A stretch of DNA of 37,723 bases from an uncultured Magnetospirillum sp. (GTDB lineage Bacteria > Pseudomonadota > Alphaproteobacteria > Rhodospirillales > Magnetospirillaceae), in NCBI RefSeq assembly GCF_903853455.1, contig NZ_CAINTR010000022.1, forward strand, positions 1-37,723, read 5' to 3'. Positions within the stretch are counted from its first letter, which is position 1; each line of letters begins with the position of its first letter. The position numbers and the translations under genes are program-made. Below, in pieces: positions 174 through 20,328 of the stretch. Under the pieces are notes generated by a model. It was given only the letters and a program-made list of their open reading frames with translations, made no database searches and was not told where the DNA came from.

Positions 174-237
174 GGCGCGCGGCACATGCCGCGAAAGCCA
201 AGCCCCACGGAGTGGGGCGCCCGGCGACTGAGGGGCA
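174..237 (-). repeat. Hairpin repeat, copy A
   Basis: One of five copies in the window of a GC-rich dispersed repeat. It contains two perfect hairpins: CGCGGC-ACAT-GCCGCG (178-193) and CCCCAC-GGA-GTGGGG (203-217). They are joined by the shared core GAAAGCCAAG (193-202) and followed by the shared tail CGCCCGGCGACTGAGGGG. The second stem differs in sequence from the other copies but still pairs fully. The copy lies between the IS110-type element and the 3' end of fliN, and its distal part may have been lost to that insertion. Confidence 0.7.
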
Positions 238-246
238 GAAAAGACT

Positions 247-534
247 CTAATCCGCCGCGCGCTTGAGTACTTCGGTGATGGTGACGGCCAGGTGGTCTTC
301 GACCACCACCACTTCGGCGCGGCAGACGCGCTTGCCGTTGACGTAGAGATCGACCGGGTCGTTGACCCTGCGGTCCAGTTCCACCACGGCGCCACGGCCC
401 AGCTTCAGCAACTGGGCGATGGGGAGGCTGGCGGTTCCCAGCACGGCCGAGACCTCGACCGAGACGTCGTAGACCGCTTCCCGGTTGGCTCCGATCCCGA
501 GGGCTGCGTTGATCGCGTCGTCGCTGTCGGCCAT
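247..534 (-). CDS. fliN: Flagellar motor switch protein FliN
   Basis: This 95-residue protein consists almost entirely of one SpoA (surface presentation of antigens) domain, residues about 22-92, with the typical pattern V-S-V-E-V-S-A-V-L-G, LLKLGRGAVVELDR and a C-terminal V-x-I-T-E-V-L. FliN forms part of the cytoplasmic C-ring and helps set flagellar rotation direction together with FliM and FliG. The short length, without the N-terminal extension of enterobacterial FliN, is usual in Alphaproteobacteria. The ATG at 534 is preceded by TAGGAAAT at a suitable distance. In relatives fliN sits in a fliF-fliG-fliH-fliN-flbD type cluster. Here the downstream side is taken by a hairpin repeat and an IS110-type element, so any downstream partner such as flbD is separated or absent. 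Confidence 0.88.
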   Translation of the reverse strand: MADSDDAINAALGIGANREAVYDVSVEVSAVLGTASLPIAQLLKLGRGAVVELDRRVNDPVDLYVNGKRVCRAEVVVVEDHLAVTITEVLKRAAD

Positions 535-688
535 ATTTCCTACCCTGTCCGCTCCCAGGTGCCGGAGCAGTCCAAGCTATAGCACAGAGAGTGTTAACAG
601 GGAGTGGAGAAACGCCCTTTCCCCTTTGCGGAGGTTGCGGCGAGGCGATGCTCGCCGCTATGATCACGGCGGCAACGGGACCGGCGCG

Positions 689-1012
689 ATGACAACCGAA
701 ATCTATATCTGCAAGGACGGCCAGGAGCTCAAGCAGGGGAAGCTGGTCTATTCCGACGACGTCGTCGACCGGGAGGGCGCCGAGGAGGATGCCATGCGTC
801 GCTGCAAGGGCGACCCGACCATCAAGAAGGTCGCCTATTACAAAGTGACGGCCAGCGGCGATTTCCGGGTGTTTTTCTCCTACACCAACCCCAATTGTAA
901 GCCGGCTCCCAAGCTGCAAACCGGCGCGCCCCCGAAGAAGAAGCCGCACGTCGCCAAGAAAAAGCCGCCGCCCAGCCTGCTGGAACGGCTGAAACGGAAG
1001 ATCGGTCTTTAG
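689..1012 (+). CDS. Hypothetical protein, 107 aa, with Lys/Pro-rich tail
   Basis: I do not recognise this family. From the ATG at 689 it encodes a small soluble protein. Residues 1-65 are mixed and acidic (MTTEIYICKDGQELKQGKLV at the start). Residues 70-95 are rich in Lys and Pro (PPKKKPHVAKKKPPP), and a short basic amphipathic end (LLERLKRKIGL) follows. The start was chosen because the open frame upstream of 689 has unlike composition and overlaps the divergent fliN promoter side. There is no signal peptide or membrane segment. The basic linker could contact nucleic acid or a membrane surface, but that is speculation. It is followed at once by the hydrolase gene, which starts 26 bp downstream, so the two may be cotranscribed. 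Confidence 0.6.
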   Translation: MTTEIYICKDGQELKQGKLVYSDDVVDREGAEEDAMRRCKGDPTIKKVAYYKVTASGDFRVFFSYTNPNCKPAPKLQTGAPPKKKPHVAKKKPPPSLLERLKRKIGL

Positions 1013-1038
1013 CCTCTGACCTAGGAATATCCCGCACA

Positions 1039-1839
1039 TTGGAACTTGAACTTCTGTACTGCCGGTCGACGGCCCCCTCGCCCGCCGAACGCCCCCCCAT
1101 CCTGTTCGTTCACGGCTCGTATTGCGGCGCCTGGGTCTGGGCGGAATATTTCATGCCCTATTTCGCCGAAGCCGGCTATTCCAGCCATGCGGTGTCCCTG
1201 CGCGGCCACGGCGACAGCCAGGGCCGCTTCAACCAGGCGACGCTGGAGGATTACGTCAGCGACGTGCGCTCGGCCATGGACAATCTGGGCGGACGCTGCA
1301 TCCTGGTCGGCCACTCCATGGGCGGTCTGGTGGCCCAGCATTGCCTGACCGGCACGCAAACGGTGGAGGCGGCGGTGCTGATGTCCAGCGTGCCGCCGTC
1401 GGGTCTGGCCTCCTCGGCGCTGTACCTGTCCATGTTCTCTCCCGACGTCTGCCTCCAGTTGAGCCTGCTGCAAAGCTTCGGCCCCTCGGCGGTGAAGAGC
1501 GAGGTCATCCGCCGGGCGCTGTTTTCCAACGCGACCCCGGTCGAGACCGTCGCCCACCTTTTGCCCCGCTTCCAGCAGGAGTCGCAAAGCATCTGCGTGG
1601 AATTGCTCAACCCCGTCCGCCCTCCCCTGCCCCTGCCGCAGGGCAGCCTGCCGATCCTGGTGATCGGCGGCGACCGCGACGTGCTGGTTCCCAGCTTCGC
1701 GCTCTACGAGACCGCCTCCTATTTCGACGCCGAACTGGAGGTTCTGCCCGGCGCGCCGCACGGGCTGATGCTGGATACGTCGTGGTGGAAGATCACCGCC
1801 GACAAGACCCTGGCATGGCTGGAAAGCAAGGGATTCTGA
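1039..1839 (+). CDS. Alpha/beta hydrolase family protein
   Basis: A 266-residue alpha/beta hydrolase fold enzyme. Residues 21-30 (ILFVHGSYCG) hold the HG oxyanion-hole motif. GHSMGG at 91-96 is the nucleophile elbow with Ser93. The likely acid is Asp214 in GGDRDVLVP, and the likely base is His241 in PGAPHGLML. Length and motifs fit serine hydrolases or esterases of the AB hydrolase-1 type; the substrate cannot be read from sequence. The frame opens at a TTG (1039) with AGGAA at 1023-1027. No ATG in frame would keep the first beta strand, so the TTG start is favoured. There is no signal peptide, so it is probably cytoplasmic. It follows the small gene at 689 in the same direction. Confidence 0.82.
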   Translation: MELELLYCRSTAPSPAERPPILFVHGSYCGAWVWAEYFMPYFAEAGYSSHAVSLRGHGDSQGRFNQATLEDYVSDVRSAMDNLGGRCILVGHSMGGLVAQHCLTGTQTVEAAVLMSSVPPSGLASSALYLSMFSPDVCLQLSLLQSFGPSAVKSEVIRRALFSNATPVETVAHLLPRFQQESQSICVELLNPVRPPLPLPQGSLPILVIGGDRDVLVPSFALYETASYFDAELEVLPGAPHGLMLDTSWWKITADKTLAWLESKGF

Positions 1840-2001
1840 GCAGAGTCGCCAATCCGGCCGCTCAAGACGTCCGACAAAAACACCACCCGTCCTATTCTTG
1901 CGGTTACTTGCGATGCACCATACGGTGGTCACGACGGACTCTCGGCTATGACGCAAGGCATAGGCAGACTTTCCAATTCGTGGGCGGTCTCTTGAAATCG
2001 C

Positions 2002-2030
2002 TTCAAATTTTCGGGTAATCGCGCTATCTT
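2002..2030 (+). promoter_or_regulatory. Candidate promoter in the 1840-2072 gap
   Basis: The 233-bp stretch between the hydrolase and the next gene holds no convincing ORF. TTCAAA (2002-2007) and TATCTT (2025-2030), 17 bp apart, resemble a sigma-70-type promoter reading towards the gene at 2073. A short inverted repeat TTGAA-N5-TTCAA (1992-2006) overlaps the -35 element and could be an operator. Sequence match only. Confidence 0.3.
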
Positions 2031-2072
2031 GAAAGGTGGATTAGTCTAGGTTCATTCTATCCGAGTAGTGAG

Positions 2073-2495
2073 ATGGCACTGAGTACGCGTCAGGTTGGGT
2101 CGGCAACGGCGTCAGGAATTGCGGCGGCAACAGCCCGCGTCGGCAATGGCGGCCGTAATGTCGCGTCCACCACGCGCGGCGACGTGGAGAAGATGGATTT
2201 CTCGCCCCATCTGGGGGTCAACGAGGAATCGGTCCTTCGCTTCCAGCAGGAAGGCCAGCTCAACCCCGACGGCCGCCGCCAGCAGCAGCGCGACCAGCGC
2301 GACGGCTTCACCCCCCTGCTGGCGCGCAACGCCTACAGCACCAACATGGACTCCACCGACGAGACCAATGCCGACGGGTCGCCCAAGCTTTTCCTCAACG
2401 ACGTCATGCGCGGCATCGGCACCTACGAGGAAAACATGCGCGTCACCTCGCCCGCCGCGGTCAAGCCGGGCAGCGTGATGAACTACCTGTTCTGA
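2073..2495 (+). CDS. Hypothetical protein, 140 aa, low complexity N-terminus
   Basis: I do not recognise this family. The N-terminal 40 residues are rich in Ala, Gly, Ser, Thr and Arg (ALSTRQVGSATASGIAAATA at the start). The middle is Gln/Arg/Asp rich (RRQQQRDQRDG about residues 68-78). The C-terminal half is better ordered, ending KPGSVMNYLF. There is no signal peptide, membrane span or cysteine. The polar, disordered-looking N-terminus and the compact tail suggest a small structural or adaptor protein, but no function is assigned. It has its own candidate promoter and is followed by a palindromic repeat, so it looks monocistronic. ATG at 2073. Confidence 0.6.
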   Translation: MALSTRQVGSATASGIAAATARVGNGGRNVASTTRGDVEKMDFSPHLGVNEESVLRFQQEGQLNPDGRRQQQRDQRDGFTPLLARNAYSTNMDSTDETNADGSPKLFLNDVMRGIGTYEENMRVTSPAAVKPGSVMNYLF

Positions 2496-2529
2496 CAGGC
2501 CCCCCTCCTGATGGAACAAGCTTTGCGTC

Positions 2530-2633
2530 CGTCATGCCCGGACGTGTTCCGGGCATCCACGCCGTTCCGTACCGTAACCGTTTGAGCTTGTCGCACCGCG
2601 TGGATACGCGGGACAAGCCCGCGCATGACGACG
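2530..2633. repeat. Palindromic intergenic repeat pair (alphaproteobacterial type)
   Basis: Two imperfect palindromic units face each other. The first reads CGTCATGCCCGG ... CCGGGCATCCACG (2530-2561). The second reads CGTGGAT ... GGGACAAGCCCGCGCATGACG (2599-2630). Units of the form CGTGGATGCCCGGGACAAGCCCGGGCATGACG are common between genes in many Alphaproteobacteria. They lie between convergent genes (2495 and 2682) and may act as a bidirectional terminator. This family is distinct from the other hairpin repeat in the window. Confidence 0.65.
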
Positions 2634-2681
2634 TCGGGGGATCTGCTTCCGTCTAAACGGGAACCGCTCCAACTCCCCCCG

Positions 2682-3212
2682 TCACGGCATCCGCGAATTC
2701 AGGGTGATGGTCTCGCCGTCCACCGCGAACGTCCCATAGCCGTGGTGATGGATGGTCTTGGGATGGGTCTGGGCCGGATCGATCCAGGCCTTGACCACTT
2801 CGAGGACGAAGAGGTTGTAGCGGTCCACCAGGGTCTTGTCGGCGACCTTGCATTCGAGATTGGCGAAGCACTCGGCCACCAGCGGCGCCGCCACCCGCTT
2901 GGCCGGCAGCGGCGTCAGGCCGAACGCCGCGAACTTGTCGGTATCGCGGCCCGAGGAATTGCCCACTTCCACCACCTTGGCCGCCAGGTCCACGGCGGGA
3001 ATGGCGATCACGCATTCCCCCGTCGCCCGCAGCGCCGCGAAGCTGTAATCGCGGCCGCTGACCACGCAGGCCACCAGCGGCGGGGTGAATTCCACCATCA
3101 TATGCCACGACATGGTCATGACGTTGGCGCGGCCGTCTTGCGCCGTGGTCAGCAGCACCACCGGTCCCGGCTCCAGCAGCCGATAGACCTCCGACAGGGC
3201 AAGGTTTTTCAT
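2682..3212 (-). CDS. Flavoredoxin-like FMN-binding split-barrel protein in the nir operon
   Basis: A 176-residue member of the flavin reductase-like/flavoredoxin family (FMN-binding split barrel). The pattern LLTTAQDGRANVMTMSWHMM followed by FTPPLVACVVSGRDYSF is typical of these proteins, which bind FMN and take part in electron transfer or flavin reduction. It has no membrane span and is probably cytoplasmic. Its ATG (3212-3210) overlaps the nirJ stop in an ATGA, so it is translationally coupled as the last gene of the heme d1 operon. It is not one of the classical nir genes. A role as electron donor to the NirJ radical SAM step or another redox step is an attractive inference from position alone. 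A generic flavoprotein is the alternative. Confidence 0.8.
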   Translation of the reverse strand: MKNLALSEVYRLLEPGPVVLLTTAQDGRANVMTMSWHMMVEFTPPLVACVVSGRDYSFAALRATGECVIAIPAVDLAAKVVEVGNSSGRDTDKFAAFGLTPLPAKRVAAPLVAECFANLECKVADKTLVDRYNLFVLEVVKAWIDPAQTHPKTIHHHGYGTFAVDGETITLNSRMP

Positions 3213-4351
3213 GGGAGTCCGATCTCCTCGTCGCTGAGGTAACAGCCGGGGTCTTCCGCCCATACGTTACCGCTGATGCGCTCGGCGCGCACGCGGGTAT
3301 TGCCGTTGCAGGCGGCGAGATGGACACAGGCGGCGCACCGCCCCTCCACCGGCCGGGGATGGCGCTTCAGCCCCGCCATCAACGGGTCGGAGACATCCGG
3401 CCAGATGGCGGAGAACCGCCGCTGCCGCACATTGCCCAGGGAGTGGTTCCACCACATGGTGTCGGGATGGACCTCGCCCAGGTTGTCGATATTGGCCACG
3501 TTGACCCCGGAGGCGTTGCCACCCCACTGCGCCAGCTTGGCGGCGACGTGATCGACCCTCTCCGGCTGGTGGCGGCGCACCCAGGACAGGAAATAGGGAC
3601 CGTCGGCATCGTTGTTGCCGGTGACGAATTCCCGCGCCCGCCCTGCCTGGGCATGCTCCCAGGCAGTGTCGAACAGCAGGTCCATGGCGTCGCGGGTGAT
3701 CTGCATCGTGGCGTCGTCGAGGCGGTTCTTGTTGCCGCGTCCGGCATAGTTGAGGTGGGAGAAGTAGAACTTCGCCACCCCTTCCGCCTCCATCAGCCCG
3801 ATCACCTGGGGCAGCTCGGCGGCGTTGTCCATGGTCATGGTGAAGCGCAACCCCACCTTGACGCCGCGCGCGACGCAGCGGCGGATGCCGGCCAGGGAGG
3901 CGGCGAAGGCGCCGTCCCGCGCCCGGAAGCGGTCATGGGTGGCGCCGATGCCGTCGATGCTGATTCCCACATAGTCGAAGCCGGTGGAACCGATGCGGTC
4001 GGCGGTCGCCTCGTCGATCAGGGTGCCGTTGGTCGACAGCGCGGTGTAGAAGCCCATGGCCTTGGCGCGGGCGGCGATGCGGAAGATATCGGGACGCAGC
4101 AGCGGCTCGCCGCCCGACAGGATCAGCACCGGCACCTTGAATTCCCGCAGATCCGTCATCACCGTGAACACCTCGGCGGTGGTGAGTTCGCCGGCAAAGT
4201 CCTTGTCGGTGGAGATGGAATAGCAGTGCTTGCAGGCGAGGTTGCAGCGCCGGATCAGGTTCCAGATCACCACCGGGCCGGGCGGATTGCGGTGCGGCCC
4301 CACCGGGCTGGGAGCCATAAGCTCGTGCATGAACTGGGAGACACGGAACAT
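3209..4351 (-). CDS. nirJ: Heme d1 biosynthesis radical SAM protein NirJ
   Basis: A 380-residue radical SAM enzyme. C36-x3-C40-x2-C43 (RRCNLACKHCYS) binds the SAM-reactive 4Fe-4S cluster, and SGGEP at about 79-83 is the SAM-binding GGE motif. A C-terminal cysteine set (C339, C342, C348, C370) resembles SPASM-type auxiliary cluster ligands. NirJ removes propionate side chains from 12,18-didecarboxysiroheme during synthesis of heme d1, the cofactor of cytochrome cd1 nitrite reductase. Context settles the assignment: it follows nirF, D, L, G and H in the order known from Pseudomonas. It starts at 4351, directly abutting the nirH stop (4352), and overlaps the flavoredoxin-like gene by ATGA. The length is usual for NirJ. 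Confidence 0.93.
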   Translation of the reverse strand: MFRVSQFMHELMAPSPVGPHRNPPGPVVIWNLIRRCNLACKHCYSISTDKDFAGELTTAEVFTVMTDLREFKVPVLILSGGEPLLRPDIFRIAARAKAMGFYTALSTNGTLIDEATADRIGSTGFDYVGISIDGIGATHDRFRARDGAFAASLAGIRRCVARGVKVGLRFTMTMDNAAELPQVIGLMEAEGVAKFYFSHLNYAGRGNKNRLDDATMQITRDAMDLLFDTAWEHAQAGRAREFVTGNNDADGPYFLSWVRRHQPERVDHVAAKLAQWGGNASGVNVANIDNLGEVHPDTMWWNHSLGNVRQRRFSAIWPDVSDPLMAGLKRHPRPVEGRCAACVHLAACNGNTRVRAERISGNVWAEDPGCYLSDEEIGLP

Positions 4352-4924
4352 CTAGAGCCTCAATCCCGTCTTCTTGAGAATGCGCGAACTGAACAACACC
4401 AGATGGCCGGAGGACAGCGGCCCCAGCGTCGCGGCGATCCTCGCCACCAGGGCGTCGGCGGCAACGCGCTCCTTGGCGTGGATCATGGCGAACAGCGAAT
4501 AGGGCCAGTCGGGCAGGGCGCGCGGCCGGTGGTAGCAGTGGCTGACGAAGTCCAGCTCCCCCACCAGACGCCCCGCCTCGGAGACGTCGCCGTCGGCCAC
4601 ATCCCACACCGTCATGCCGTTGAAGCCGTAGCCCAAGGCGTAGTGGTTGGGCACCAGCCCGATGCGGCGGATCACGCCCGCCGCCAGCAGCCGTTCCAGC
4701 CGCTCCATCACCTCCTCGGGAGGAATGCCCACCGTTTCGGCGACGGCGTGGTATGGCCGCTCCACCAGCGGTAGCCCATCCTGGGTGGCCTTGACGATGG
4801 CGCGGTCGATGGTGTCGATGATTTGTCCCTCAAGCGCCGGGCGCGCGCCTCCGCGCGCTTGGCTTTCCTCCGCTAAAGCTCCGGGTCGCTCAACGCTCCC
4901 GCGCTCGCTTTGCTCGATCTTCAT
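4352..4924 (-). CDS. nirH: Siroheme decarboxylase subunit NirH (Lrp/AsnC-type), repeat-extended N-terminus
   Basis: A 190-residue member of the AhbA/AhbB/NirDLGH family, an AsnC/Lrp-like fold. With its sister subunits it decarboxylates siroheme to 12,18-didecarboxysiroheme. The helix-turn-helix-like part (about 36-85, with LPLVERPYHAVAETVGIPPEEV) aligns with NirD residues 1-50, and the ligand-binding half follows with the family pattern CYHRPRALPDWPYSLFAMIH. Compared with NirD, about 35 extra residues precede the domain. Residues 18-34 (EESQARGGARPALEGQ region) are encoded by copy C of the hairpin repeat. The ATG at 4924 overlaps the nirG stop in an ATGA. A TTG or GTG start inside the extension cannot be excluded. 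Confidence 0.88.
   Translation of the reverse strand: MKIEQSERGSVERPGALAEESQARGGARPALEGQIIDTIDRAIVKATQDGLPLVERPYHAVAETVGIPPEEVMERLERLLAAGVIRRIGLVPNHYALGYGFNGMTVWDVADGDVSEAGRLVGELDFVSHCYHRPRALPDWPYSLFAMIHAKERVAADALVARIAATLGPLSSGHLVLFSSRILKKTGLRL
4823..4871 (+). repeat. Hairpin repeat, copy C, inside the nirH reading frame
   Basis: Shares with the other copies the edge TTGTCCCTCAA-GCGCCGGGC and the core CTTGGCTTTC. Its variable hairpin is GCGCGCG-CCTC-CGCGCGC (4841-4858), a perfect 7-bp stem whose sequence differs from copies A, B and E. The copy is open in the nirH frame and encodes residues 18-34 of that protein. The second hairpin seen in copies A, B, D and E is not conserved here; the following 50 bp encode the first 17 residues of NirH. 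Confidence 0.75.
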
Positions 4925-5364
4925 GCCTCGAACCTCAAGCCGACGAAGAACTCCTCGATCTTGGGCATGTCGTGGACAGCCAAGCCGGTGCGGGCTTCGA
5001 TCTCCGCCAGGACCTCGGCGATGCGCTCGGGCCGCTCGGTGGCAACCACGAACCACATGTTCAGGGCATGGTCGCGGGCGTAATTATGCGCCACTTCGGG
5101 GAAGGAATTGACGATGGCCGCCACATCGTCGAACCGCTCCGCCGGCACGCTCATGGCCGACAGGGTCAGGCCGCCACCCATCTTCTCGGCGTGCCACAGG
5201 GGGCCGAAGCGGCTGATCACACCGTCGTCCCGCATGGCCTTGATCCGGGCCAGCAGATCGGCCTCCTCCAGCCCCAGCGCCTCGGCGGCGGCGGCGAAGG
5301 GCCGCTCGGCAATGGGAAAGCCGCCTTGCAGGGCGTTGACGATGCGGCGGTCGGTGTCATCCAT
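4921..5364 (-). CDS. nirG: Siroheme decarboxylase subunit NirG (Lrp/AsnC-type)
   Basis: A 147-residue NirDLGH family protein, matching the usual NirG length. An N-terminal winged-helix-like part (residues 1-55, FPIAERPFAAAAEALGLEEA) is followed by the substrate-binding half with EVAHNYARDHALNMWFVVAT, the motif seen also in NirD (EVNHNYQREHRLNLWFVVTA). NirG and NirD are the AhbA-like partners that carry the conserved HNY...H motif, and they pair with NirH and NirL. The ATG at 5364 lies 4 bp after the nirL stop (5369), and the gene ends in an ATGA overlap with nirH. The longer open frame upstream is a shadow of nirL. Acts in the cytoplasm in heme d1 synthesis. Confidence 0.9.
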   Translation of the reverse strand: MDDTDRRIVNALQGGFPIAERPFAAAAEALGLEEADLLARIKAMRDDGVISRFGPLWHAEKMGGGLTLSAMSVPAERFDDVAAIVNSFPEVAHNYARDHALNMWFVVATERPERIAEVLAEIEARTGLAVHDMPKIEEFFVGLRFEA

Positions 5365-5368
5365 GGGC

Positions 5369-5866
5369 CTACTCCGCCGCCAGGGGCCGCCGGCCGTAGC
5401 GGGCGCCGGTCTGCTTGAAGCGCCGGGTCGAGAACAGCACCGCATGGCCATGGGAGGCAAGGCCGTGACGCTCGGCCAGCCCCCGGATCGCCGCCTCCAC
5501 CGCGTCGCGGTCGCGGCCGTGGACCATGCAGAACAGGTTGAACGGCCAATCCGGCAACCGGCGCGGCCGGCGGTAGCACAGCGTCACCTCGGGCGAATCG
5601 CCCAGCCGCCGCCCCAGCTCGCCGACCAGCGGATCGGGGATGTCCCACACCGCCATGGCATTGGCGCGAAAGCCCAGCTCGTGATGGCGGACGATAACGC
5701 CGAAACGGCGGATGATGCCGACCGCGCTCATGGCCTTGATGCGGGCGATCACCGCGTCCTCGGACAGCCCCACCGCCTGGCCGACGGCGCGGTAAGGCCG
5801 GTCCACCAGCGGCAGGCCGTCGGCCAGCACCGAGACCAGATCCAGGTCGGAATCGCTCAACTCCAT
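5369..5866 (-). CDS. nirL: Siroheme decarboxylase subunit NirL (Lrp/AsnC-type)
   Basis: A 165-residue AhbB-like subunit of siroheme decarboxylase. The N-terminal helix-turn-helix-like region (LPLVDRPYRAVGQAVGLSED, residues 18-37) is followed by the ligand-binding half with CYRRPRRLPDWPFNLFCMVH, the same motif as NirH. The start overlaps the 3' end of nirD by 10 bp (5857-5866), which indicates translational coupling. In some denitrifiers nirD and nirL are fused into one gene; here they are separate. The order nirF-nirD-nirL-nirG-nirH follows the Pseudomonas arrangement, and this is why the four paralogues can be told apart. Confidence 0.88.
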   Translation of the reverse strand: MELSDSDLDLVSVLADGLPLVDRPYRAVGQAVGLSEDAVIARIKAMSAVGIIRRFGVIVRHHELGFRANAMAVWDIPDPLVGELGRRLGDSPEVTLCYRRPRRLPDWPFNLFCMVHGRDRDAVEAAIRGLAERHGLASHGHAVLFSTRRFKQTGARYGRRPLAAE

Positions 5867-6306: not shown

Positions 6307-6307
6307 G

Positions 6308-7483
6308 TCACAGCCCCGTTTTGTGGGCGCGGGCGGAGAAGAAGATGCCGCTGGGCTTGACCGCCGGCAGCTCGGCCACCTGCTCCAGGGTCTCGGTGTC
6401 GTAGACCACCACCTTGTCGGAATCCCTGGCCGAGATCCAAACCCGCTCGCCGCGCGGGGTGAACTCCATGTGGAGGATGGCCTTGCCCGGATACAGGGTC
6501 TTGACCACCTTGCGGCTGGGCACGTCGATCACCTGCACCACGTCGTAGTCGGGCACTGCGAAATTGACCCAGACCTGCCGCCCGTCCGGCCGCGCCATGA
6601 CGAAGACCGGCTGGCCGGCGACATCGACACGGGCGGCTTCCTTCCAACTGGTCTTGTCCACCACCAGCACCTGATGGTGGCCGATGGCGGGCAGCCAGAT
6701 CTCGTTGTCGGCGGCGGCCCAGCCGCGCAGATGCGGCATCTTGAATACCGGCAGCGGCTCGGTGCCCTTGCCGTAATGGTCGAGGATGCGCCGCACCCCC
6801 TGGTCCGGGTTCCACAGGTCGAGCAAGGCGATGCCGTCCTCGCCGAACAGGCCGGCGAGATACCAGCGGCCGTCGCCGGTGACCAGGGCGTCGTAGGGCA
6901 GCCTGCCGATGCCGGTGAACTTGGTCAGCGCCGGCTTGGCCGGATCGGCCAGGTCGGCGATCCAGATCTCGCCGGCGTCGTAGAGGCTGTAGATGAATTT
7001 ACGCCCCGGCAGGTCGGCGATGCCGATCACTTTGCTGGGCTTGCCGTCGGCGGCGATGGCGGGAATGTCGGCCACCAGGGCCAGACTGGCGGTGTCGAAC
7101 ACCTTGATGCCGCCGGGGGTGTAGTTGGCCACCGCCACCAGCGAACCGTCCTGGGAGATGGCGCCGCCGATGGAATTGCCCGACTGCACCACCCGGCCGG
7201 CGATGGTGCCGGTCAGAAGGTCGACCTTGGTCAAGCCGCCGTCGCGGCCGAACACGAAAACATAACGTTCGTCACGGGAATAGACCAGGGCGGCATGGGA
7301 GAGATCGCCCAGGCCGGACACCGTGGACAGGATGGTGGAGCCGGTGCTTTCCACCACCGTGACCCGCCCGTCGGCGCGCTCGACGATCACCCCCAGGTCG
7401 CCGGTGCCGCGTAATTGCGGCGAACAGGCGGCCAGCAGGGCCAGGGCGGCGGTGAATACCGACGAGCGAATGAAGTCCTTCAT
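6308..7483 (-). CDS. nirF: Heme d1 biosynthesis protein NirF, lipoprotein-type
   Basis: A 391-residue beta-propeller protein of the cytochrome cd1/NirF/NirN type, lacking a heme c motif. The N-terminus MKDFIRSSVFTAALALLAAC is a lipoprotein signal with lipobox LAAC, so the mature protein would be anchored facing the periplasm. Repeated segments such as IKVFDTASLALVADI, VLVVDKTSWKEAARV and VVVYDTETLEQVAEL mark propeller blades. NirF acts in late heme d1 synthesis, proposed as the dehydrogenase or chaperone of the dihydro-heme d1 intermediate. An open frame continues upstream to 7957, but only the ATG at 7483 gives a signal peptide and normal length. That ATG and the next codons lie inside a perfect hairpin of repeat copy B, and no clear Shine-Dalgarno precedes it. 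Confidence 0.92.
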   Translation of the reverse strand: MKDFIRSSVFTAALALLAACSPQLRGTGDLGVIVERADGRVTVVESTGSTILSTVSGLGDLSHAALVYSRDERYVFVFGRDGGLTKVDLLTGTIAGRVVQSGNSIGGAISQDGSLVAVANYTPGGIKVFDTASLALVADIPAIAADGKPSKVIGIADLPGRKFIYSLYDAGEIWIADLADPAKPALTKFTGIGRLPYDALVTGDGRWYLAGLFGEDGIALLDLWNPDQGVRRILDHYGKGTEPLPVFKMPHLRGWAAADNEIWLPAIGHHQVLVVDKTSWKEAARVDVAGQPVFVMARPDGRQVWVNFAVPDYDVVQVIDVPSRKVVKTLYPGKAILHMEFTPRGERVWISARDSDKVVVYDTETLEQVAELPAVKPSGIFFSARAHKTGL

Positions 7484-7570
7484 TCGCTTGGAGTTGCGGC
7501 CAAGGGCCGGCGCGGCTTGTGCCGCGAAAGCCAAGGGCGCGGAGGCGCCCGCCCGGCGACTGAGGGACAA
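7466..7570 (-). repeat. Hairpin repeat, copy B, spanning the nirC-nirF junction and nirF start
   Basis: The fullest copy together with D. On the minus strand it reads TTGTCCCTCAGTCGCCGGGC, hairpin GGGCGC-CTCC-GCGCCC (7550-7535), core CTTGGCTTTC, hairpin CGCGGC-ACAA-GCCGCG (7526-7511), GGCCCTTGGCC, and a terminal perfect hairpin GCGAATGAA-GGAC-TTCATTCGC (7487-7466). The last hairpin contains the nirF start codon at 7483-7481. It fills the 92-bp gap between nirC and nirF, which otherwise would be unusually long for this operon. Confidence 0.8.
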
Positions 7571-7575
7571 CCGAA

Positions 7576-7890: not shown

Positions 7891-7943
7891 CCCCAGCCTC
7901 CCTATGGCCATGACAGGGATAGCATCGTTGGCAAAGCCACGGC

Positions 7944-7957: not shown

Positions 7958-7974
7958 GAGGCGCGATTGGAACC

Positions 7975-7988: not shown

Positions 7989-8041
7989 GGCTCCAATCAT
8001 TAACTTGCTGCAATGTTCGGCATGGACATGGGGAGTGAGCG

Positions 8042-12588: not shown

Positions 12589-12608
<20 letters not shown>
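12216..12608 (+). CDS. PIN-domain ribonuclease toxin (VapC/FitB-like)
   Basis: A 130-residue PIN-domain protein with the expected acidic residues of the metal-dependent RNase centre: Asp7 (VVDASA), Glu42 (HFELANV), Asp96 (TAYDASYLWLA) and Asp114 (TLDRKL). VapC/FitB toxins cleave tRNA or rRNA when the antitoxin is degraded. All catalytic positions are present, so the toxin looks active. The start codon lies inside the antitoxin gene, so translation is probably coupled. The 3' end overlaps the end of the convergent histidine kinase gene by 20 bp, which suggests that the module inserted very close to that gene. Confidence 0.9.
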
Positions 12609-13979
<1,371 letters not shown>

Positions 13980-13983
<4 letters not shown>

Positions 13984-14708: not shown

Positions 14709-14749
14709 ACTGGTGTTATACCCCGGCACGCCTTCCGCGTCGGTTGCTA

Positions 14750-14768
14750 TTCGGTAACCGAAGGTAAC
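14750..14768. promoter_or_regulatory. Candidate OmpR-type operator between the response regulator and hisG
   Basis: GGTAAC occurs at 14753-14758 and again at 14763-14768, one helical turn apart, and the first copy is embedded in a palindrome TTCGGT-A-ACCGAA (14750-14762). OmpR/PhoB-type regulators bind direct repeats with a 10-11 bp period. The site lies between the divergent response regulator and hisG genes, so autoregulation is the simplest reading. An effect on hisG is possible. Confidence 0.4.
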
Positions 14769-14852
14769 AGGCGCCCTGCGCCCGGGGCTTTAATGAAACC
14801 ACACACTGGTGCGCCGCCGCGAAACCCTGTAGATGTTTCAGCCCCCGCAGGA

Positions 14853-15527
14853 ATGAGTTTCAAGACCGTGCGCCCTGAAGACAAACTGGTGATCGCCCTG
14901 CCCAAGGGCCGAATTCTCGACGAAGCCATGCCGTTGGTGCGTGCCGCCGGCATCGAACCCGAAGCCGCCTTCGACGATCCGAAGAGCCGGCTGTTGCGCT
15001 TTGCCACCAACCATCCCCATATCGACATCATCCGGGTGCGCTCGTTCGACGTCGCCACCTTCGTCGCGTTCGGCGCCGCCCATCTCGGTATCGCGGGAAA
15101 TGACGTGCTGATGGAATTCGATTACCCCGAAATCTACGCTCCGCTCGACCTCGGCATCGGCAAGTGCCGCCTGTCGGTGGCCGAGCCCGACGACGTGGCG
15201 GCCGGCGACGACCCCCGGCGCTGGAGCCATGTGCGCATCGCCACCAAATACCCCGAGGTGACCCGGCGCTACTTCGCCGCCCGCGGCGTCCAGGCCGAAT
15301 GCGTCAAGCTGAACGGCGCCATGGAACTGGCGCCGTCGCTGGGCCTGTGCTCGCGCATCGTCGACCTGGTCTCGTCGGGCGCGACGCTGGTGGCCAACGG
15401 CCTGAAGGAAGTCGAGGTGATCGCCGAGGTGACGTCGCGCCTGATCGTCAACCGCGCCGCCTTGAAGACCCGTTCCGACGAGATGACGGGCTGGATCGAA
15501 CGCTTCCGCAAGGCCTGTCAGGCATGA
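14853..15527 (+). CDS. hisG: ATP phosphoribosyltransferase, short form (HisG)
   Basis: A 224-residue enzyme of the short HisG type, which lacks the C-terminal regulatory domain and needs HisZ for activity and feedback control. It catalyses the first step of histidine synthesis, ATP plus PRPP to phosphoribosyl-ATP. Typical segments are [15 protein letters not shown] near the start, [16 protein letters not shown], and [20 protein letters not shown], the PRPP-binding region. A longer start at 14793 ([20 protein letters not shown] added) is possible; the ATG at 14853 gives the common length. No hisZ is seen in the window. The gene ends in an ATGA overlap with hisD. Confidence 0.92.
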
Positions 15528-16822
15528 AGGAGCTGCTGTCCACCGATGCCGGCTTCGAGGCCGACTTCGCCGCCTTGCTGAATATGAAGCGGGAGAACGA
15601 CGAGGACGTCGATACCCAGGTCGCCGCCATCCTGGCCGACGTCAAGCGCCAGGGCGACGCGGCGCTGATCAGCTACACCGCCCGCTTCGACCGGCTGGAG
15701 CTGACCCCCGCCACGCTGCGCATCACCGCCCAGGAGGTGGACGAGGCCGCCGCCTCCTGCGATCCCGAGCTGATCGCGGCGCTGACCCTGGCGGCCGAGC
15801 GCATCCATGCCTTCCATATCCGCCAGATCCCCGAGAACCACCGCTACGTGGACGCGGCCGGCGTCAAGCTGGGCCTACGCTGGACGGCGGTAGAGGCCGC
15901 CGGCCTCTACGTTCCCGGCGGCACCGCCGCCTATCCGTCCTCGGTGCTGATGAACGCCATTCCCGCCAAGGCGGCGGGGGTGGAGCGGCTGGTGATGGTG
16001 GTGCCCTCGCCCGGCGGCAAGCTCAACCCGCTGGTGCTGGCCGCTGCCAAGATCGCCGGTATCGACGAGATCTACCGGGTCGGCGGCGCCCAGGCGGTGG
16101 GCGCCCTGGCCTACGGCACCCAGACCATCCGGCCGGTGGACAAGATCGTCGGCCCCGGCAACGCCTATGTGGCCGCCGCTAAGCGCCGCGTGTTCGGCAC
16201 GGTCGGCATCGACATGATCGCCGGTCCGTCGGAAATCCTGGTGGTGGCCGACGGCGGCAACGATCCCGGCTGGATCGCCGCCGACCTGCTCAGCCAGGCC
16301 GAGCACGACACCGCCGCCCAAAGCATCCTGATCACCGACGACCGCGACTTCGGCCGGCAGGTGGCCCTGGCGGTGGAATCCCACCTCAAGACCCTGGCCC
16401 GTGCCGCCATCGCCCGCGAAAGCTGGGACCGCTTTGGTGCCGTCATCGTGGTTCCCGCCATGGACGACGCGGTGGCGCTGATCGACCGCATCGCGCCGGA
16501 GCATCTGGAACTGGCGGTGGCCGATCCCGAGGCCATGGCCGCCAAGGTGCGCAATGCCGGCGCCATCTTCCTCGGCCGCTACACCCCCGAGGCCATCGGC
16601 GATTATGTGGGCGGCCCCAACCACGTCCTGCCCACCGCCCGCTCGGCCCGGTTCTCGTCGGGTCTGGGGGTGCTGGACTTCATGAAGCGCACCACCCTGC
16701 TGGGCTGCGACGCCGCCTCCCTGCGGGCCATCGGACCGGCGGCGGTGACCCTGGCCGAAGCGGAAGGGTTGGGAGCGCACGGATTGTCGGTCTCGGTGCG
16801 GCTCAATCCAGGGGAGGCTTGA
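15524..16822 (+). CDS. hisD: Histidinol dehydrogenase (HisD)
   Basis: A 432-residue enzyme for the last two steps of histidine synthesis, oxidising histidinol to histidine with NAD and zinc. Conserved parts are [73 protein letters not shown] (zinc-binding Gln/His), IAPEHLEL and [13 protein letters not shown]. The full length is present and no key motif is missing. It begins within the hisG stop (ATGA at 15524-15527), and its own stop overlaps the start of the UPF0262 gene. The hisG-hisD-UPF0262 order is a common alphaproteobacterial arrangement. Confidence 0.96.
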
Positions 16823-17295
16823 TGCCGCATCGGCAGAAGCTGATCAGTGTCCAACTCGACGAGAAGACCATGGTGCGCCGCGCCGCCGAGGTGGAACACG
16901 AGCGCGCCGTCGCCATCTACGACCTGCTGGAAGAAAACTACTTCGCCCTCAACGGCGACTTCACCGGCCCCTACGCCCTGCATATCCGCCTGGAAGACAA
17001 CCGGCTGATCTTCGACGTCCGCACCCAGGATGGGGTGCCGCTGACCCAGGTGCCGCTGCCGCTCAAGACCTTCCAGTCGGTGGTCAAAGACTACTTCATG
17101 GTCTGCGAGACCTATTACGCCGCCATCACGAAGCTGACGCCATCCCAGATCGAGGCCATCGACATGGGCCGCCGGGGCCTCCACAACGAGGGCTCCGAAC
17201 TCCTGCGCGAACGGCTGCACGGCAAGGTCGACATCGACTTCGACACCGCGCGGCGGCTGTTCACCCTCATCTGCGTCCTGCATATCAGGGGGTAG
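16822..17295 (+). CDS. UPF0262 family protein
   Basis: A 157-residue conserved alphaproteobacterial protein of unknown function. Recognisable segments are HERAVAIYDLLEENYF, GPYALHIRLEDNRLIFDVR, FQSVVKDYFMVCETYYAAI and IEAIDMGRRGLHNEGSELL. Its usual place is between hisD and a low-molecular-weight phosphatase, exactly as here. The ATG at 16822 shares its A with the hisD TGA stop and is preceded by GGGGAGG at 16811-16817, a strong ribosome site that decides the start. The predicted protein is soluble and has no signal peptide. Confidence 0.9.
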   Translation: MPHRQKLISVQLDEKTMVRRAAEVEHERAVAIYDLLEENYFALNGDFTGPYALHIRLEDNRLIFDVRTQDGVPLTQVPLPLKTFQSVVKDYFMVCETYYAAITKLTPSQIEAIDMGRRGLHNEGSELLRERLHGKVDIDFDTARRLFTLICVLHIRG

Positions 17296-17297
17296 AC

Positions 17298-17741
17298 TTG
17301 GGCGAATTGCCGTCCTCCGTCCTGTTCTGCTGCACCATGAACGCTGTGCGCTCGCCCATGGCGGAAGGGCTGATGAAGCGCTTCCACGGCAAGCGCATCT
17401 ATGTCTATTCGGTCGGCGTGCGCCGAGGCGAGCCCGATCCCTTCGTGGTCCAGGTCATGGACGAGATCGGCATCGACGTCTCCAAGCACCGCCCCCGCAT
17501 CTTCGAGGAGTTGGAGGACGACAGCTTCGACGTGGTGGTCTCGCTGTCGCCGGAGGCCCAGCACAAGGCGGTGGACCTCACCCGCCACAACGCCTGCGAG
17601 GCGGAGTACTGGCCGACCTTCGACCCCACCCTGATCGAGGGCAACCGCGAGACCATGCTGGACGCCTATCGCAAGGTGCGCGACGAGTTGGAGCGTCATA
17701 TCCTCAAACGCTTCCCCATGCAGGGGATGGCGAGGGAGTAG
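17298..17741 (+). CDS. Low-molecular-weight protein tyrosine phosphatase-like protein
   Basis: A 147-residue LMW-PTP/ArsC-fold protein. The phosphate loop is C12-T-M-N-A-V-R18-S, fitting C-x5-R-S with Asn15 in the usual place. Asp109-Pro110 (TFDPT) is positioned like the general acid. It may dephosphorylate proteins; in the absence of the arsenate reductase cysteines, arsenate reduction is less likely. The start is a TTG at 17298 with AGGGGG at 17287-17292; the next ATG would cut the active site. It lies 2 bp after the UPF0262 gene and so is part of the same transcript. Confidence 0.85.
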   Translation: MGELPSSVLFCCTMNAVRSPMAEGLMKRFHGKRIYVYSVGVRRGEPDPFVVQVMDEIGIDVSKHRPRIFEELEDDSFDVVVSLSPEAQHKAVDLTRHNACEAEYWPTFDPTLIEGNRETMLDAYRKVRDELERHILKRFPMQGMARE

Positions 17742-17748
17742 TTTCGGG

Positions 17749-17862
17749 TGCCCCTCAATCGCCGGGCGGAATGCGTCCCGCATCCCTTGGCTTTCGCGCC
17801 ATGTGGCGCGGCGGCCTTTGGCCTTGCCTCCCGACGAATGAATGGGTTCATTCGTCGGGAGG
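17749..17862 (+). repeat. Hairpin repeat, copy D, with a perfect 16-bp terminal hairpin
   Basis: In order: CCCTCAATCGCCGGGC; variable hairpin GGAATGCG-TCC-CGCATCCC with one mismatch (17768-17786); core CTTGGCTTTC; hairpin CGCGCC-ATGT-GGCGCG (17795-17810); GGCCTTTGGCC; and a perfect 16-bp stem CCTCCCGACGAATGAA / TTCATTCGTCGGGAGG around TGGG (17827-17862). The last hairpin shares CGAATGAA-N4-TTCATTCG with copy B. It fills the gap between the phosphatase gene and infA. No T-tract follows, so it is not a typical terminator. Downstream, 17863-17960 should hold the infA promoter, but only weak matches (TTGACC, TTATCT) are visible. Confidence 0.8.
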
Positions 17863-17960
17863 TACAATCCGGTTGTTGCGGCGCGAAAACGCTTGACCAA
17901 ACACCGCCCAGCGCTCACTTATCTTTCCTCGCGGAAGAAGAAGCCCTGAATGGAGGACCA

Positions 17961-18179
17961 ATGGCGAAAGAGGATGTGATCGAGTTTTCGGGCACGGTGA
18001 CGGAACTGCTGCCCAATGCCATGTTCAGGGTTAAGCTCGACAACGAACACGAAATCCTTGCCCACACGTCCGGCAAGATGCGCAAGAACCGCATTCGCGT
18101 GCTGGCCGGTGATCGGGTCAACGTGGAAATGACGCCCTACGACCTGACCAAGGGCCGCATCACGTTCCGCTACAAGTAA
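17961..18179 (+). CDS. infA: Translation initiation factor IF-1
   Basis: A 72-residue S1/OB-fold protein: [20 protein letters not shown], then [20 protein letters not shown] and [23 protein letters not shown]. This is the full and highly conserved IF-1 sequence. IF-1 binds the ribosomal A site during initiation together with IF-2 and IF-3. The ATG is preceded by GGAGG at 17952-17956. Located between repeat copy D and maf, the arrangement normal for Alphaproteobacteria. Confidence 0.98.
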
Positions 18180-18183
18180 CGCC

Positions 18184-18783
18184 ATGAGCGGCCTCGTCGA
18201 GAGTCCGGCGCTGGTTCTGGCGTCGGCTTCGCCCCGCCGCCTCGACCTGCTGCGCCAGATCGCCGTCGTGCCCGGGATCGTCGATCCCGCCCATCTGGAT
18301 GAATCGCCCGCCAAGGGCGAACTCCCCGTTCCCCATGCCCGCCGTCTGGCCGAGGAAAAGGCCCGCGCCGTCCTGCCCCGCCATCCCGGCTGCTTCGTCC
18401 TGGCCGCCGACACGGTGGTGGCCTGCGGGCGGCGCATCCTGCCCAAGGCCGAGGACGCCGCCACCGCCCGCCAATGCCTGACCCTGCTGTCGGGCCGCCG
18501 TCATCGCGTCCATGGCGGGGTCTGCCTGATCGCCCCCGACGGCAAGGTCCGCCAGCGGCTGGTCACCACCATCGTCACCTTCAAGCGCCTGACCGCCGCC
18601 GAGATCGCCGCCTATGTGGAATCGGGCGAGTGGGACGGCAAGGCCGGCGGCTACGCCATCCAGGGGCTGGCCGCCCGCTTCGTGCGCGCCCTCTCGGGCT
18701 CCTACTCCAACATCGTCGGCCTGCCGCTGTTCGAAACCACCGCCCTGCTGGAAGGCTCGGGCTTCTTCCGGTCTTCCCCGTGA
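18184..18783 (+). CDS. maf: Maf-like nucleoside triphosphate pyrophosphatase
   Basis: A 199-residue Maf/HAM1-fold protein. LVLASASPRRLDLLRQI near the N-terminus is the substrate-binding SxSPRR motif, VLAADTVVAC holds Asp76, and GKAGGYAIQGLAARFV and GSYSNIVGLPL are typical C-terminal motifs. Maf enzymes hydrolyse non-canonical or modified NTPs (dTTP/UTP or m7GTP) and have been linked to septum control. It starts 4 bp after infA, and its stop overlaps the GTG of the next gene. Which Maf subgroup (YhdE or YceF) it belongs to cannot be settled here. Confidence 0.93.
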   Translation: MSGLVESPALVLASASPRRLDLLRQIAVVPGIVDPAHLDESPAKGELPVPHARRLAEEKARAVLPRHPGCFVLAADTVVACGRRILPKAEDAATARQCLTLLSGRRHRVHGGVCLIAPDGKVRQRLVTTIVTFKRLTAAEIAAYVESGEWDGKAGGYAIQGLAARFVRALSGSYSNIVGLPLFETTALLEGSGFFRSSP

Positions 18784-20243
18784 CCCGAGCCGGCCCCTAC
18801 CGCATCACGGTCGTCCTGCTGGCCGGGCTGGCCGTGGTCATGTTCGCCTATCCCTGCCTGCGGGTCGGCGCCGCCTTCGAGATCGACTACAACGAGGGCT
18901 GGAACGCCTATCTGCAGGGGCTGGTCATGACCGGCGCGTCGCCCTATGCCGGGGCGGGAGCGCTGTTCTTCAACAATTACCCGCCGCTGTCCTTCTATCT
19001 GATCGGGCTGGCCGGACTCGTGGTCGGCGATCCGGTCCTGGCCGGACGGCTGTTGTCGGTGCTGGCGGTGGCGGTCATCGCCGCCAGTTCGGGAGTGGTG
19101 GTGCGGGCCAATGGCGGTTCACGCACCGATGCCACCCTGGCGGCCGCCACCTGCGCCGCCCTGTTTTCCGCCTTCGCCACCGATTATGTCGGGGTGGACG
19201 ACCCACAACTGCTGGCGCAAGGCTTCCTGTGCGCCGGCTTCGCCGTCTATGTGAGCGGCAAAGGCGGCCCGGCGCGCATGGCCGCCGTGGCGGTGCTGTT
19301 CGCCCTCGGACTGCTGTGCAAGCACAACGTGCTGGCGCTGCCGCTGGTGGTCACCGTCCACGCCCTGTGGCGGGGCCGGGGAGCCGGGCGCTGGACCTTC
19401 CTGGCGGTCGGGCTGGCCCTGGCCGCCGCCGCCGCCGCGGTCATCGCCGCCCTGTTCGGGGTCGATTTCGTTCACCGGCTGCTGGCGCCGCGCATCTATG
19501 ACGCCACCCGGGGCTTCCTGCTGACCATGGAGGTGCTGGGGCATATCCAGGCGCCGCTGGCCGTCGCCGGGCTGTTCCTGCTGTTGGTCCGCCGGAGCGC
19601 CATCGGCACCATGGTCGCCGCCTATCTGGTCGGCAGCCTGCTGCTGGGCATGGGCTTTTCCGGCGGGGCCGGCGTCGACATCAACATCTTCTTCGACACC
19701 ATGATCGCCGCCGCCATGGGCGTCGGCCTGACGGCGACCTGGCTGCGCACCCGGCCGGGCCTTGCCGCCATGGCTCCGGCGGCGCTGGCGGTGCTGGCCA
19801 ATATGGGCGTGCTGCTGCTGACGCCGCAGGTGCTGGGGCGGATGGTGGTGGACGCCCTGGGCGAATACGCCGAGCGGGAGGAGCTGTTCCGCGCCGACGT
19901 CGCCTATCTGAGCCGCATCCCCGGTCCGGCCGTGTGCGAATCCATGCTGCTGTGCATGCGTGCCGGCAAGGCGGTCACGGTCGATCCCTACAACGTGCTG
20001 CAAGCCAGCCTGACTGGACGGCTGCCGCCCCGCCAGTTGGAAGACATGCTGGCGCGGCGCGAATTCCCCGTGGTCCAGATCAGCAGCAGCCGCGAGCATC
20101 CGCTGGACGAAGCGCCCGGCCTCCAGGTGATTCCGCCGCGCTTCGTCAATTTCAGCGACGGCGTGTTCGACGAGCTGGCCCGCTCCTACACGCTGGAGCG
20201 CGTCGGCCTGTCGGGCCGTTTCTACCGGCCGAAGGACTCGTAA
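18780..20243 (+). CDS. Polytopic membrane protein, GT-C glycosyltransferase-like
   Basis: A 487-residue protein with about ten or eleven hydrophobic segments and a soluble C-terminal part (about 375-487). Near the N-terminus, after the first membrane span, FEIDYNEGWNAYLQGLV carries the acidic motif of GT-C fold, lipid-phosphate-sugar dependent glycosyltransferases (GT39/ArnT/PMT superfamily), and FFNNYPPLSFYL is a companion motif. It probably transfers a sugar to a lipid or protein at the outer face of the inner membrane; donor and acceptor are unknown. The GTG start (18780) overlaps the maf stop (GTGA), so it is translationally coupled with maf, an unusual partner. No ATG lies near, which supports the GTG. 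Confidence 0.75.
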   Translation: MTRAGPYRITVVLLAGLAVVMFAYPCLRVGAAFEIDYNEGWNAYLQGLVMTGASPYAGAGALFFNNYPPLSFYLIGLAGLVVGDPVLAGRLLSVLAVAVIAASSGVVVRANGGSRTDATLAAATCAALFSAFATDYVGVDDPQLLAQGFLCAGFAVYVSGKGGPARMAAVAVLFALGLLCKHNVLALPLVVTVHALWRGRGAGRWTFLAVGLALAAAAAAVIAALFGVDFVHRLLAPRIYDATRGFLLTMEVLGHIQAPLAVAGLFLLLVRRSAIGTMVAAYLVGSLLLGMGFSGGAGVDINIFFDTMIAAAMGVGLTATWLRTRPGLAAMAPAALAVLANMGVLLLTPQVLGRMVVDALGEYAEREELFRADVAYLSRIPGPAVCESMLLCMRAGKAVTVDPYNVLQASLTGRLPPRQLEDMLARREFPVVQISSSREHPLDEAPGLQVIPPRFVNFSDGVFDELARSYTLERVGLSGRFYRPKDS

Positions 20244-20245
20244 TC

Positions 20246-20328
20246 TTGTCCCTCGCCGGGCGGGCGCCTCCGCGCCCTTGGCCGCCGCCTCAATGGCGGC
20301 TTGATCCCGGCGAAAGATTCGCCGGGAT
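20246..20328 (+). repeat. Hairpin repeat, copy E, ending in an 11-bp terminator-like stem
   Basis: TTGTCCCTCGCCGGGC is followed by hairpin GGGCGC-CTCC-GCGCCC (20262-20277), identical to copy B, and CTTGG. Then comes GCCGCC-TCAAT-GGCGGC (20284-20300), and a perfect stem ATCCCGGCGAA-AGA-TTCGCCGGGAT (20304-20328). It sits between the convergent membrane protein gene (ends 20243) and nadV (ends 20334), and the last stem may act as a shared terminator. The core lacks the TTTC of the other copies. Confidence 0.7.

Follow-up and report, generated by a model that had tools for sequence, protein, structure and literature searches.

An apparently undescribed family of multihairpin DNA repeats with covarying stems in Magnetospirillum and other Alphaproteobacteria

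Miniature inverted-repeat transposable elements (MITEs) such as Correia/NEMIS and RUP are short nonautonomous insertions with TA target duplication, and integron attC sites are recognized by their folded shape and have variable stems. The available portion of a survey of GTAG and CGTC repetitive extragenic palindromes (REPs) describes dispersed palindromes that often lie no more than 20 bp from the 3' ends of open reading frames (ORFs) and sometimes within genes, each being a single hairpin of 20 to 40 bp with an unpaired tag; the CGTC REPs, with stems of 8 to 9 bp, predominate in the Alphaproteobacteria and have no dedicated transposase (Di Nocera et al. 2013, PMC3733652). Rickettsia palindromic elements (RPEs), according to the accessible part of a review, are alphaproteobacterial palindromic repeats of ~150 bp that are reported to encode a conserved peptide, nearly half of them lying in ORFs and some being read in frame within genes (PMC10969869). 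Here we analyze five repeats, copies A to E, in a 37,723-nucleotide (nt) stretch of DNA (the window: positions 1 to 37,723 of contig NZ_CAINTR010000022.1, assembly GCF_903853455.1) from an uncultured Magnetospirillum sp. and find that they are members of a large, apparently undescribed family of short multihairpin DNA elements of the Alphaproteobacteria.

The element is a dispersed palindromic repeat, a known kind, from whose described members it differs in its larger number of hairpins, its fixed joints, and the change of its stems as units. It runs from a T-rich leader through the edge CCCTCAnnCGCCGGGC, hairpin 1, the joint TTGGCTTTC, and hairpins 2, 3, and 4 to the edge GTCGGTA. Hairpin 1 has a variable stem and a loop usually of the NTCC type, hairpin 2 is of the GCGCCATAAGGCGC or CTCGCATAAGCTCGG type, and hairpin 3 is often GGC-NNNN-loop-NNNN-TT-GCC; the loops and joints are fixed while the stems vary. 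Like the REPs in the available portion of PMC3733652, the element sits near ORF 3' ends, and this gene-end placement is therefore shared with a known kind of repeat. Unlike them, it comprises four hairpins over ~120 bp, linked by conserved joints, and its CGTC follows hairpin 4 rather than forming a head (by eye). The same portion of that survey has no mention of Magnetospirillum, Sphingo, or Erythrobacter, though abbreviated sphingomonad names occur in it. As with RPEs, copies B and C could be read in frame, whereas most copies elsewhere lie outside called genes; open frames were found in 29 of 29 copies against 28.3 expected in shuffles and are thus no commoner than by chance, on which ground coding selection was rejected. 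No RPE model was among the NCBIfam matches (E ≤ 1) of the B- and C-linked proteins, a search in which RPE DNA was not compared. The element resembles Correia/NEMIS and RUP as a short nonautonomous insertion at AT-rich sites but, unlike MITEs, has no terminal inverted repeats, and its target duplications appear inconsistent. The closest functional analogy may be the attC site, with its shape recognition and variable stems, although the present element has several hairpins per unit.

A covariance model built from 25 copies (R1) identified at least 149 copies in the 5.18-Mb genome from which the window derives (E ≤ 1e-3); this is a lower bound, since the first look gave 7,536 candidates, of which 150 were scored and 149 matched. 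A blastn search with copy D gave 45 matches in this genome from 40 scored candidates. Copies A, C, and D were among the 149 R1 matches, and B and E were not; a 25-copy nhmmer profile recovered copies A to D at E ≤ 2.3e-4, whereas copy E scored no better than E = 0.9. R1 had matches in 36 of 60 genomes (the source genome included), and all 17 genomes of the genus had matches, their copy numbers ranging from 1 to at least 61. When hairpin 1 was left free, the exact edge-plus-joint pattern occurred in at least 105 stretches; the 80 listed included records of Paramagnetospirillum, Magnetospirillum, Phaeospirillum, Telmatospirillum, Magnetospira, Roseomonas, Roseococcus, Paracraurococcus, Erythrobacter, Porphyrobacter, Aurantiacibacter, Sphingopyxis, Sphingorhabdus, Sphingomonas, and others, together with metagenome-assembled genomes. 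We take these genera to span the Rhodospirillales, Acetobacteraceae, and Sphingomonadales. A second covariance model, built from the 34-copy alignment described below, had matches in 34 of 289 genomes and 27 of 219 genera in a sample of the class (15 candidates scored per genome) and in 15 of 249 genomes in a sample of the phylum, all 15 in the same class as the source genome (the number of other-class genomes sampled was not shown). Two Niveispirillum plasmid records had partial matches, and 15 IMG/VR stretches carried the edge-plus-joint pattern. Rfam gave no match above the gathering score in the window; a total of five at 13 further loci (two to tRNA and one each to SRP, terC, and suhB) all lay off the element. 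No description of the repeat was found in literature searches of open-license papers, including searches with exact sequence strings. The initial annotation, made from the window alone, had proposed a dispersed multihairpin repeat with compensatory change that matched no known family, and it is borne out by the absence of an Rfam match, by the covariance matches (at least 149 copies where five had been seen), and by the strong covariation, double changes, and arm linkage described next.

Hairpin 1 occurred as 105 distinct strings over 174 distinct copies. In the 15- to 18-nt length classes, the arms of a copy were paired at 0.84 to 0.97, compared with 0.57 to 0.67 for arms swapped between copies of equal length; the 19-nt class, with eight strings, had no power (0.953 versus a swap mean of 0.869 and a swap maximum of 0.953). 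Because hairpin 1 varies in length, the RNAalifold structure of the 25-copy alignment missed it, and we therefore assembled an alignment in which its length was fixed at 18 nt and hairpins 2 and 3 had the standard layout. This alignment held 34 of the 38 copies listed, from several genera; the layout was picked by eye and may slightly favor pairing in hairpin 2 but not in hairpin 1. In it 91.9% of cells were paired, compared with 67.4% after shuffling, and there were 132 compensated double-change cells, compared with 47.9 ± 5.1 in shuffles (reached by 0 of 500). Changes on both sides were seen in 10 of 17 pairs. The covariation score was 0.561 versus 0.149 when shuffled and at most 0.152 when partners were slid by one to three columns. 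Two hairpin-2 pairs were unpaired in 16 of the 34 sequences (the CTCGC/GCTCG type), and neither the number of double-change pairs nor the number of pair types exceeded that in shuffles (290 and 473 of 500, respectively, reached the observed value).

Coupling between columns was assessed in 55 copies from the source genome whose hairpin 2 begins with GC and ends with GC. The seven strongest couplings were precisely the seven variable stem pairs tested, five in hairpin 1 and two in hairpin 2, with normalized mutual information (MI) of 0.91 to 1.00 and z values of 26 to 37. Columns of hairpin 1 and hairpin 2, which are 9 nt apart, reached at most z = 1.9, and between hairpins generally the normalized MI was no higher than 0.17, and z exceeded 2 for 4 of 54 column pairs. 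Among 61 copies, hairpin-1 and hairpin-2 alleles were not associated beyond shuffles (308 of 500 reached the observed value). The two units of the tandem pair C145 are alike in hairpin 4 and the linker except for a single base. Hairpin 1 of one unit reads GGCGAAC/GTTCGCC and that of the other GGGATGCG/CGCATCCC; the differences in hairpin 2 are compensated, and a single mismatch occurs in hairpin 3 of the second unit.

Comparison of orthologous loci with and without the element revealed empty sites in relatives. The infA boundary, where copy D lies, consists of just 14 to 26 nt in 11 of the 15 relatives fetched. In the remaining four the boundary is occupied, by a different copy in forward orientation in G011, by a reversed one in G003, and by palindromic DNA of other kinds, judged by eye, in G014 and G010. 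The DNA at this site in G010 (L139) contains a palindrome pair, GTCATTCC...GGATGACA, that resembles a CGTC-type REP by eye. Comparisons of the source genome with G007 and G002 (30 loci) and with G011 (21 loci) gave further empty sites, several of them at or just after a stop codon or beside a start codon; loci with one flank unaligned in the relatives are uninformative on insertion. Three sites had the same boundary occupied in opposite orientations in the source genome and a relative. At two sites G011 has reversed copies after the same stop codon as in the source genome, one of them a triple tandem, and head-to-tail tandem arrays are present in the family. At one start-codon site the source genome, G011, and G002 have copies with three different hairpin-1 stems, and G007 is apparently empty; this could reflect either one insertion that was rewritten or several insertions. 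Because of the empty sites, opposite-orientation insertions, and tandem arrays, we conclude that copies duplicate and insert, contrary to the suggestion in the initial annotation that the repeats were not the product of simple duplication. Chance GC-rich palindromes or old sequence-identical duplications could be entertained, as the window has a high GC content and many inverted repeats (1,195 pairs), but this explanation has virtually no remaining probability, being refuted by the 149 model matches, the occurrence of the exact edge-plus-joint pattern in many named genera, the empty sites, and the arm-swap controls.

Copies are concentrated near gene ends. The 5' edge lay 0 to 20 nt from a gene end in 28 of 48 copies, compared with 11.7% of intergenic positions; the gene calls were home-made, such that this and the other distances to gene ends are approximate, and the intergenic gaps of the null include those that hold elements. 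Among 55 5' edges, a same-strand stop codon lay at -10 to 25 nt in 20 cases and a start codon in 10, making stop codons the commonest neighbor. The stop codons beside the 5' edge were TAG in 11 cases, TAA in 7, and TGA in 2; the proportion of TAG or TAA (18 of 20) differs from that in the genes at large (326 of 705, with TGA in 379 of 705; Fisher p = 4.9e-5). A target consisting only of TA with TA duplication was considered and rejected, as the start-codon sites do not agree with it, although the infA site and one C8 site do.

The stems pair almost strictly by Watson-Crick rules. In 101 distinct hairpin-1 strings, 640 of 674 pairs were Watson-Crick, 2 were G-T, 12 were A-C, and 20 were of other kinds. 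Non-Watson-Crick pairs thus numbered 34 of 674 in hairpin 1, and they numbered 4 of 200 in hairpin 2 and 4 of 96 in hairpin 3, with 2, 1, and 0 G-T pairs, respectively; for these counts 4 of 105 hairpin-1 strings and 2 of 42 hairpin-2 strings were dropped for having too many non-Watson-Crick pairs. Pairing of this kind could arise by a DNA-level process, for example, templated correction of palindrome arms, without any RNA function. Compensation by itself does not show RNA-level selection, and the initial annotation, which had taken it to suggest selection on the folded RNA or DNA, is not supported as stated in this respect. A structured RNA element of 3' or 5' untranslated regions, acting in stability, processing, or attenuation and kept by RNA-level selection after duplication, nevertheless deserves consideration. 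Covariation is strong across genera, loops and joints are conserved, and the 20 of 55 copies just past a same-strand stop codon may be cotranscribed with the upstream gene; the excess of A-C over G-T in hairpin 1 also fits wobbles in the opposite strand, where A-C would be G-U, so that RNA-level selection may act on that strand. We nevertheless regard an RNA element as unlikely, given that the same boundary is occupied in both orientations, total wobble is very low, Rfam has no match, some copies are in frame at coding starts, and the element is missing at the same locus in relatives. An intrinsic terminator was also rejected, since hairpin 4 is followed by GTCGGTA or similar with no T run (by eye, without a terminator scan).

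We favor, with a probability of roughly 0.55, a nonautonomous mobile DNA repeat family that is moved in trans and recognized by its shape. An enzyme acting in trans would recognize the folded, probably single-stranded, DNA together with the conserved joints, and such recognition would leave the stem sequence free while constraining stem pairing. The arms might stay complementary through loss of unpaired copies, through replication that copies one arm from the other, or through both. Once inserted, the element would serve mainly as a 3' or 5' untranslated spacer, and it may also supply a ribosome-binding-like GAGGG (in reverse copies) or N-terminal codons (in copies B and C). More tentatively, each hairpin may be independently rewritable, its stem being swapped as a whole Watson-Crick unit by a DNA-level process, while the enzyme, reading the folded strand together with its fixed joints, would target gene ends and especially stop codons throughout the Alphaproteobacteria. 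If stems were replaced as whole units, arms would be linked and neighboring hairpins would be near linkage equilibrium.

Two further explanations were considered. Mobilization of a REP/REPIN-type repeat by a RAYT (Y1) transposase would agree with the gene-border placement, palindromic anatomy, and occasional intragenic copies of the REPs in the available portion of PMC3733652, and a search for Y1_Tnp (PF01797) gave a single match in each of 4 of the 17 genus genomes, two of which have at least 50 copies (G013 and G014). Y1_Tnp is, however, absent from the other 13, including genomes with more than 50 copies (G000, G001, G005, G011, and G016), in a search that had matches in 5 of 14 control genomes; the element has four hairpins over ~120 bp rather than one palindrome of 20 to 40 bp; and no GTAG or CGTC head plus stem was noticed by eye in the copies compared. 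The REP/RAYT explanation is already largely refuted by the absence of Y1_Tnp and is improbable; as the source genome has no match, a RAYT/IS200 transposase was rejected as the mobilizer there. A recombination-site element, either attC-like or circle integrating, whose folded site recombines at the conserved edge would yield tandem arrays with partial units trailing them. Such arrangements do occur, the last unit breaking off within hairpin 1 or directly before it (the G001 array, the trailing edges at C145 and C8, L195, and L240), but trailing edges made up just 2 of 74 edges in 792 kb (50 had the joint and 22 were of other kinds), and no crossover site is defined; we give this explanation little credence.

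Several observations weigh against the trans-mobilized, shape-recognized family that we favor. No mobilizer was found, with Y1_Tnp/RAYT absent from 13 of the 17 genus genomes, the source genome included, and terminal inverted repeats were not found in 29 full-length copies (end-to-end local score of 4.86 versus 4.69 when shuffled). Target duplications are inconsistent: there is a possible CTTT at one site, a TA at another, and a doubled stop codon at a third, and elsewhere none is clear. The 3' side has no stop-type bias (6 of 14 TA type; p = 1.0), for 25 of 55 copies the 5' edge is more than 25 nt from any called gene end, and the placement at gene ends is equally expected if insertions elsewhere were purged. 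The hairpins are also not fully independent, as coupling between hairpins 2 and 3 reached z = 3.5 (normalized MI, 0.12) and hairpin-3 type was weakly associated with hairpin-2 alleles (27 of 500 shuffles) and hairpin-1 alleles (46 of 500). To these may be added the preponderance of A-C over G-T pairs noted above.

While palindromic repeats are common, a four-hairpin element that occurs across several alphaproteobacterial groups and is missing from Rfam stands out. The family points to a mobilizer outside the RAYT system, the element edits gene ends and N termini, and the 105 distinct hairpin-1 strings allow the maintenance of arm complementarity in DNA palindromes to be tested directly.

All five copies proposed in the initial annotation are present in the window (Table 1), and repeat finding independently paired B, C, D, and E (B/C, 91% over 45 nt; C/E, 100% over 30 nt; C/D, 76% over 71 nt). 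Of these copies, C and D are complete, at ~120 bp; A and B are variants whose 3' modules differ, and E is chimeric. Copy A has the leader, the edge GCCCCTCAGTCGCCGGGC, hairpin 1 CCCCAC/GTGGGG, CTTGGCTTTC, and hairpin 2 CGCGGC/GCCGCG, followed by a differing 3' module, GCGCCCTCAACGGGCATAGTCGCTCC. Copy B has hairpin 1 GCGCGC/GCGCGC and CTTGGCTTTC and continues into a CTCCGCTAAAGCTCCGG module. In copy C the edge is CGTCGGTA and hairpins 1 to 4 are GGGCGC/GCGCCC, CGCGGC/GCCGCG, CGGCC/GGCCG, and AGCGAATGAA/TTCATTCGCT. Copy D has hairpin 1 GGAATGCG/CGCATCCC with one A-C mismatch, hairpin 2 CGCGCC/GGCGCG, hairpin 3 GGCC/GGCC with a TT bulge, and a long hairpin 4. In copy E the leader, a truncated edge, hairpin 1 GGGCGC/GCGCCC, and CTTGG can be recognized by eye; two other hairpins follow. 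The stems first described thus exist, with the labels of B and C interchanged: GGGCGC/GCGCCC belongs to C and E and GCGCGC/GCGCGC to B, and the terminal hairpin CGAATGAA/TTCATTCG, present in D as proposed, has C rather than B as its other carrier. The common edge is also real but looser than had been claimed, with A and D carrying GCCCCTCA and E lacking CANT. Single-stranded DNA folding compared with shuffles gave z values of -5.4 (D), -5.2 (E), -3.5 (C), -2.6 (A), and only -1.3 (B).

Table 1. Coordinates of the repeat copies in the window and of the parts of copy D
Feature	Position	Strand	Evidence or remark
Copy A	137..238	-	R1 match 137-238
Copy B	4823..4920	+	nhmmer; absent from G007 and G011 at this locus
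Copy C, full element	7453..7573	-	R1, nhmmer
Copy D, full element	17742..17865	+	blastn, R1, nhmmer
Copy E, partial or chimeric	20244..20331	+	30 nt identical to C; nhmmer E = 0.9
D 5' edge CCCTCAATCGCCGGGC	17752..17767	+	among the two most conserved blocks
D hairpin 1, variable stem	17768..17786	+	
D conserved joint TTGGCTTTC	17787..17795	+	
D hairpin 2	17796..17809	+	
D hairpin 3, TT bulge	17810..17828	+	
D hairpin 4	17827..17862	+	

Placement at gene junctions, also proposed at the outset, is supported overall, the exception being copy B, which lies not in a gap but inside the open frame of an AhbB-type siroheme decarboxylase gene, reversed relative to ahbB. If the ancestral ATG is used, this copy adds 34 N-terminal residues; the sequences compared are MKIEQSERGSVERPGALAEESQARGGARPALEGQIIDTIDRA in the source genome and MIDSIDRA in G007, and the family model begins at residue 43. 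The insertion of copy C adjoins a TGA/ATG overlap, and here the frame of the ancestral ATG runs uninterrupted across the element into a gene for a beta-propeller protein; a second ATG, in hairpin 4, is a possible alternative start. Two of the five window copies (B and C) are thus open in frame at N termini and may be translated there. Copy A starts 8 nt past the TAG stop of a fliN-like gene (FliMN_C match), the insertion site of copy D, upstream of infA, is a stop codon that reads TAA in relatives, and copy E begins at the TAA that terminates the gene upstream of it. The edge complement, TGAGGGAC, is located a few nucleotides before the ATG of the neighboring gene in several reverse copies and could serve there as a ribosome-binding site.

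Variants of the element have an extra 5' hairpin, another 3' module, or a second palindromic element within hairpin 2 or 3. In the source genome, a related repeat at C8:90224, C57:9337, C144:84678, and C212:22916 has an extra 5' hairpin of the GTTGATCG-AACC-CGATCAAC type and the edge CGGCGGGC, and a B-type subfamily, CTTGGCTCCTCCGCTGCGCTCCGG, is found at C64:53632-53776 (minus strand) and C64:132380 (plus strand), partly in tandem and beside CTCATTG start-codon-like boundaries. Loci L013, L018, L026, and L027 have a small palindromic element of the GCGCGCAGGCGCG...CTGCCGGCGAAGCCGGCGG type nested in hairpin 2 or 3. At G001:C1:91221-91531 (L318), three near-identical head-to-tail units are followed by a partial fourth that ends inside hairpin 1, and copies in L016, L195, L240, and L280 have similar partial units trailing them. 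One of the IMG/VR records (L305; IMGVR_UViG_2833022550_000002) has element cores at 7555 and 11216, outside ORFs of at least 280 amino acids, on a contig that carries gene-transfer-agent-like genes (Rcc01698_C, tail sheath, and portal). Among 92 copies on G016:C1 and G008:C1, the first half of the contig had 31 on the plus and 17 on the minus strand, compared with 17 and 27 in the second half (Fisher p = 0.02 pooled, 0.03 for G008 alone, and 0.30 for G016 alone), a bias that possibly reflects co-orientation with replication.

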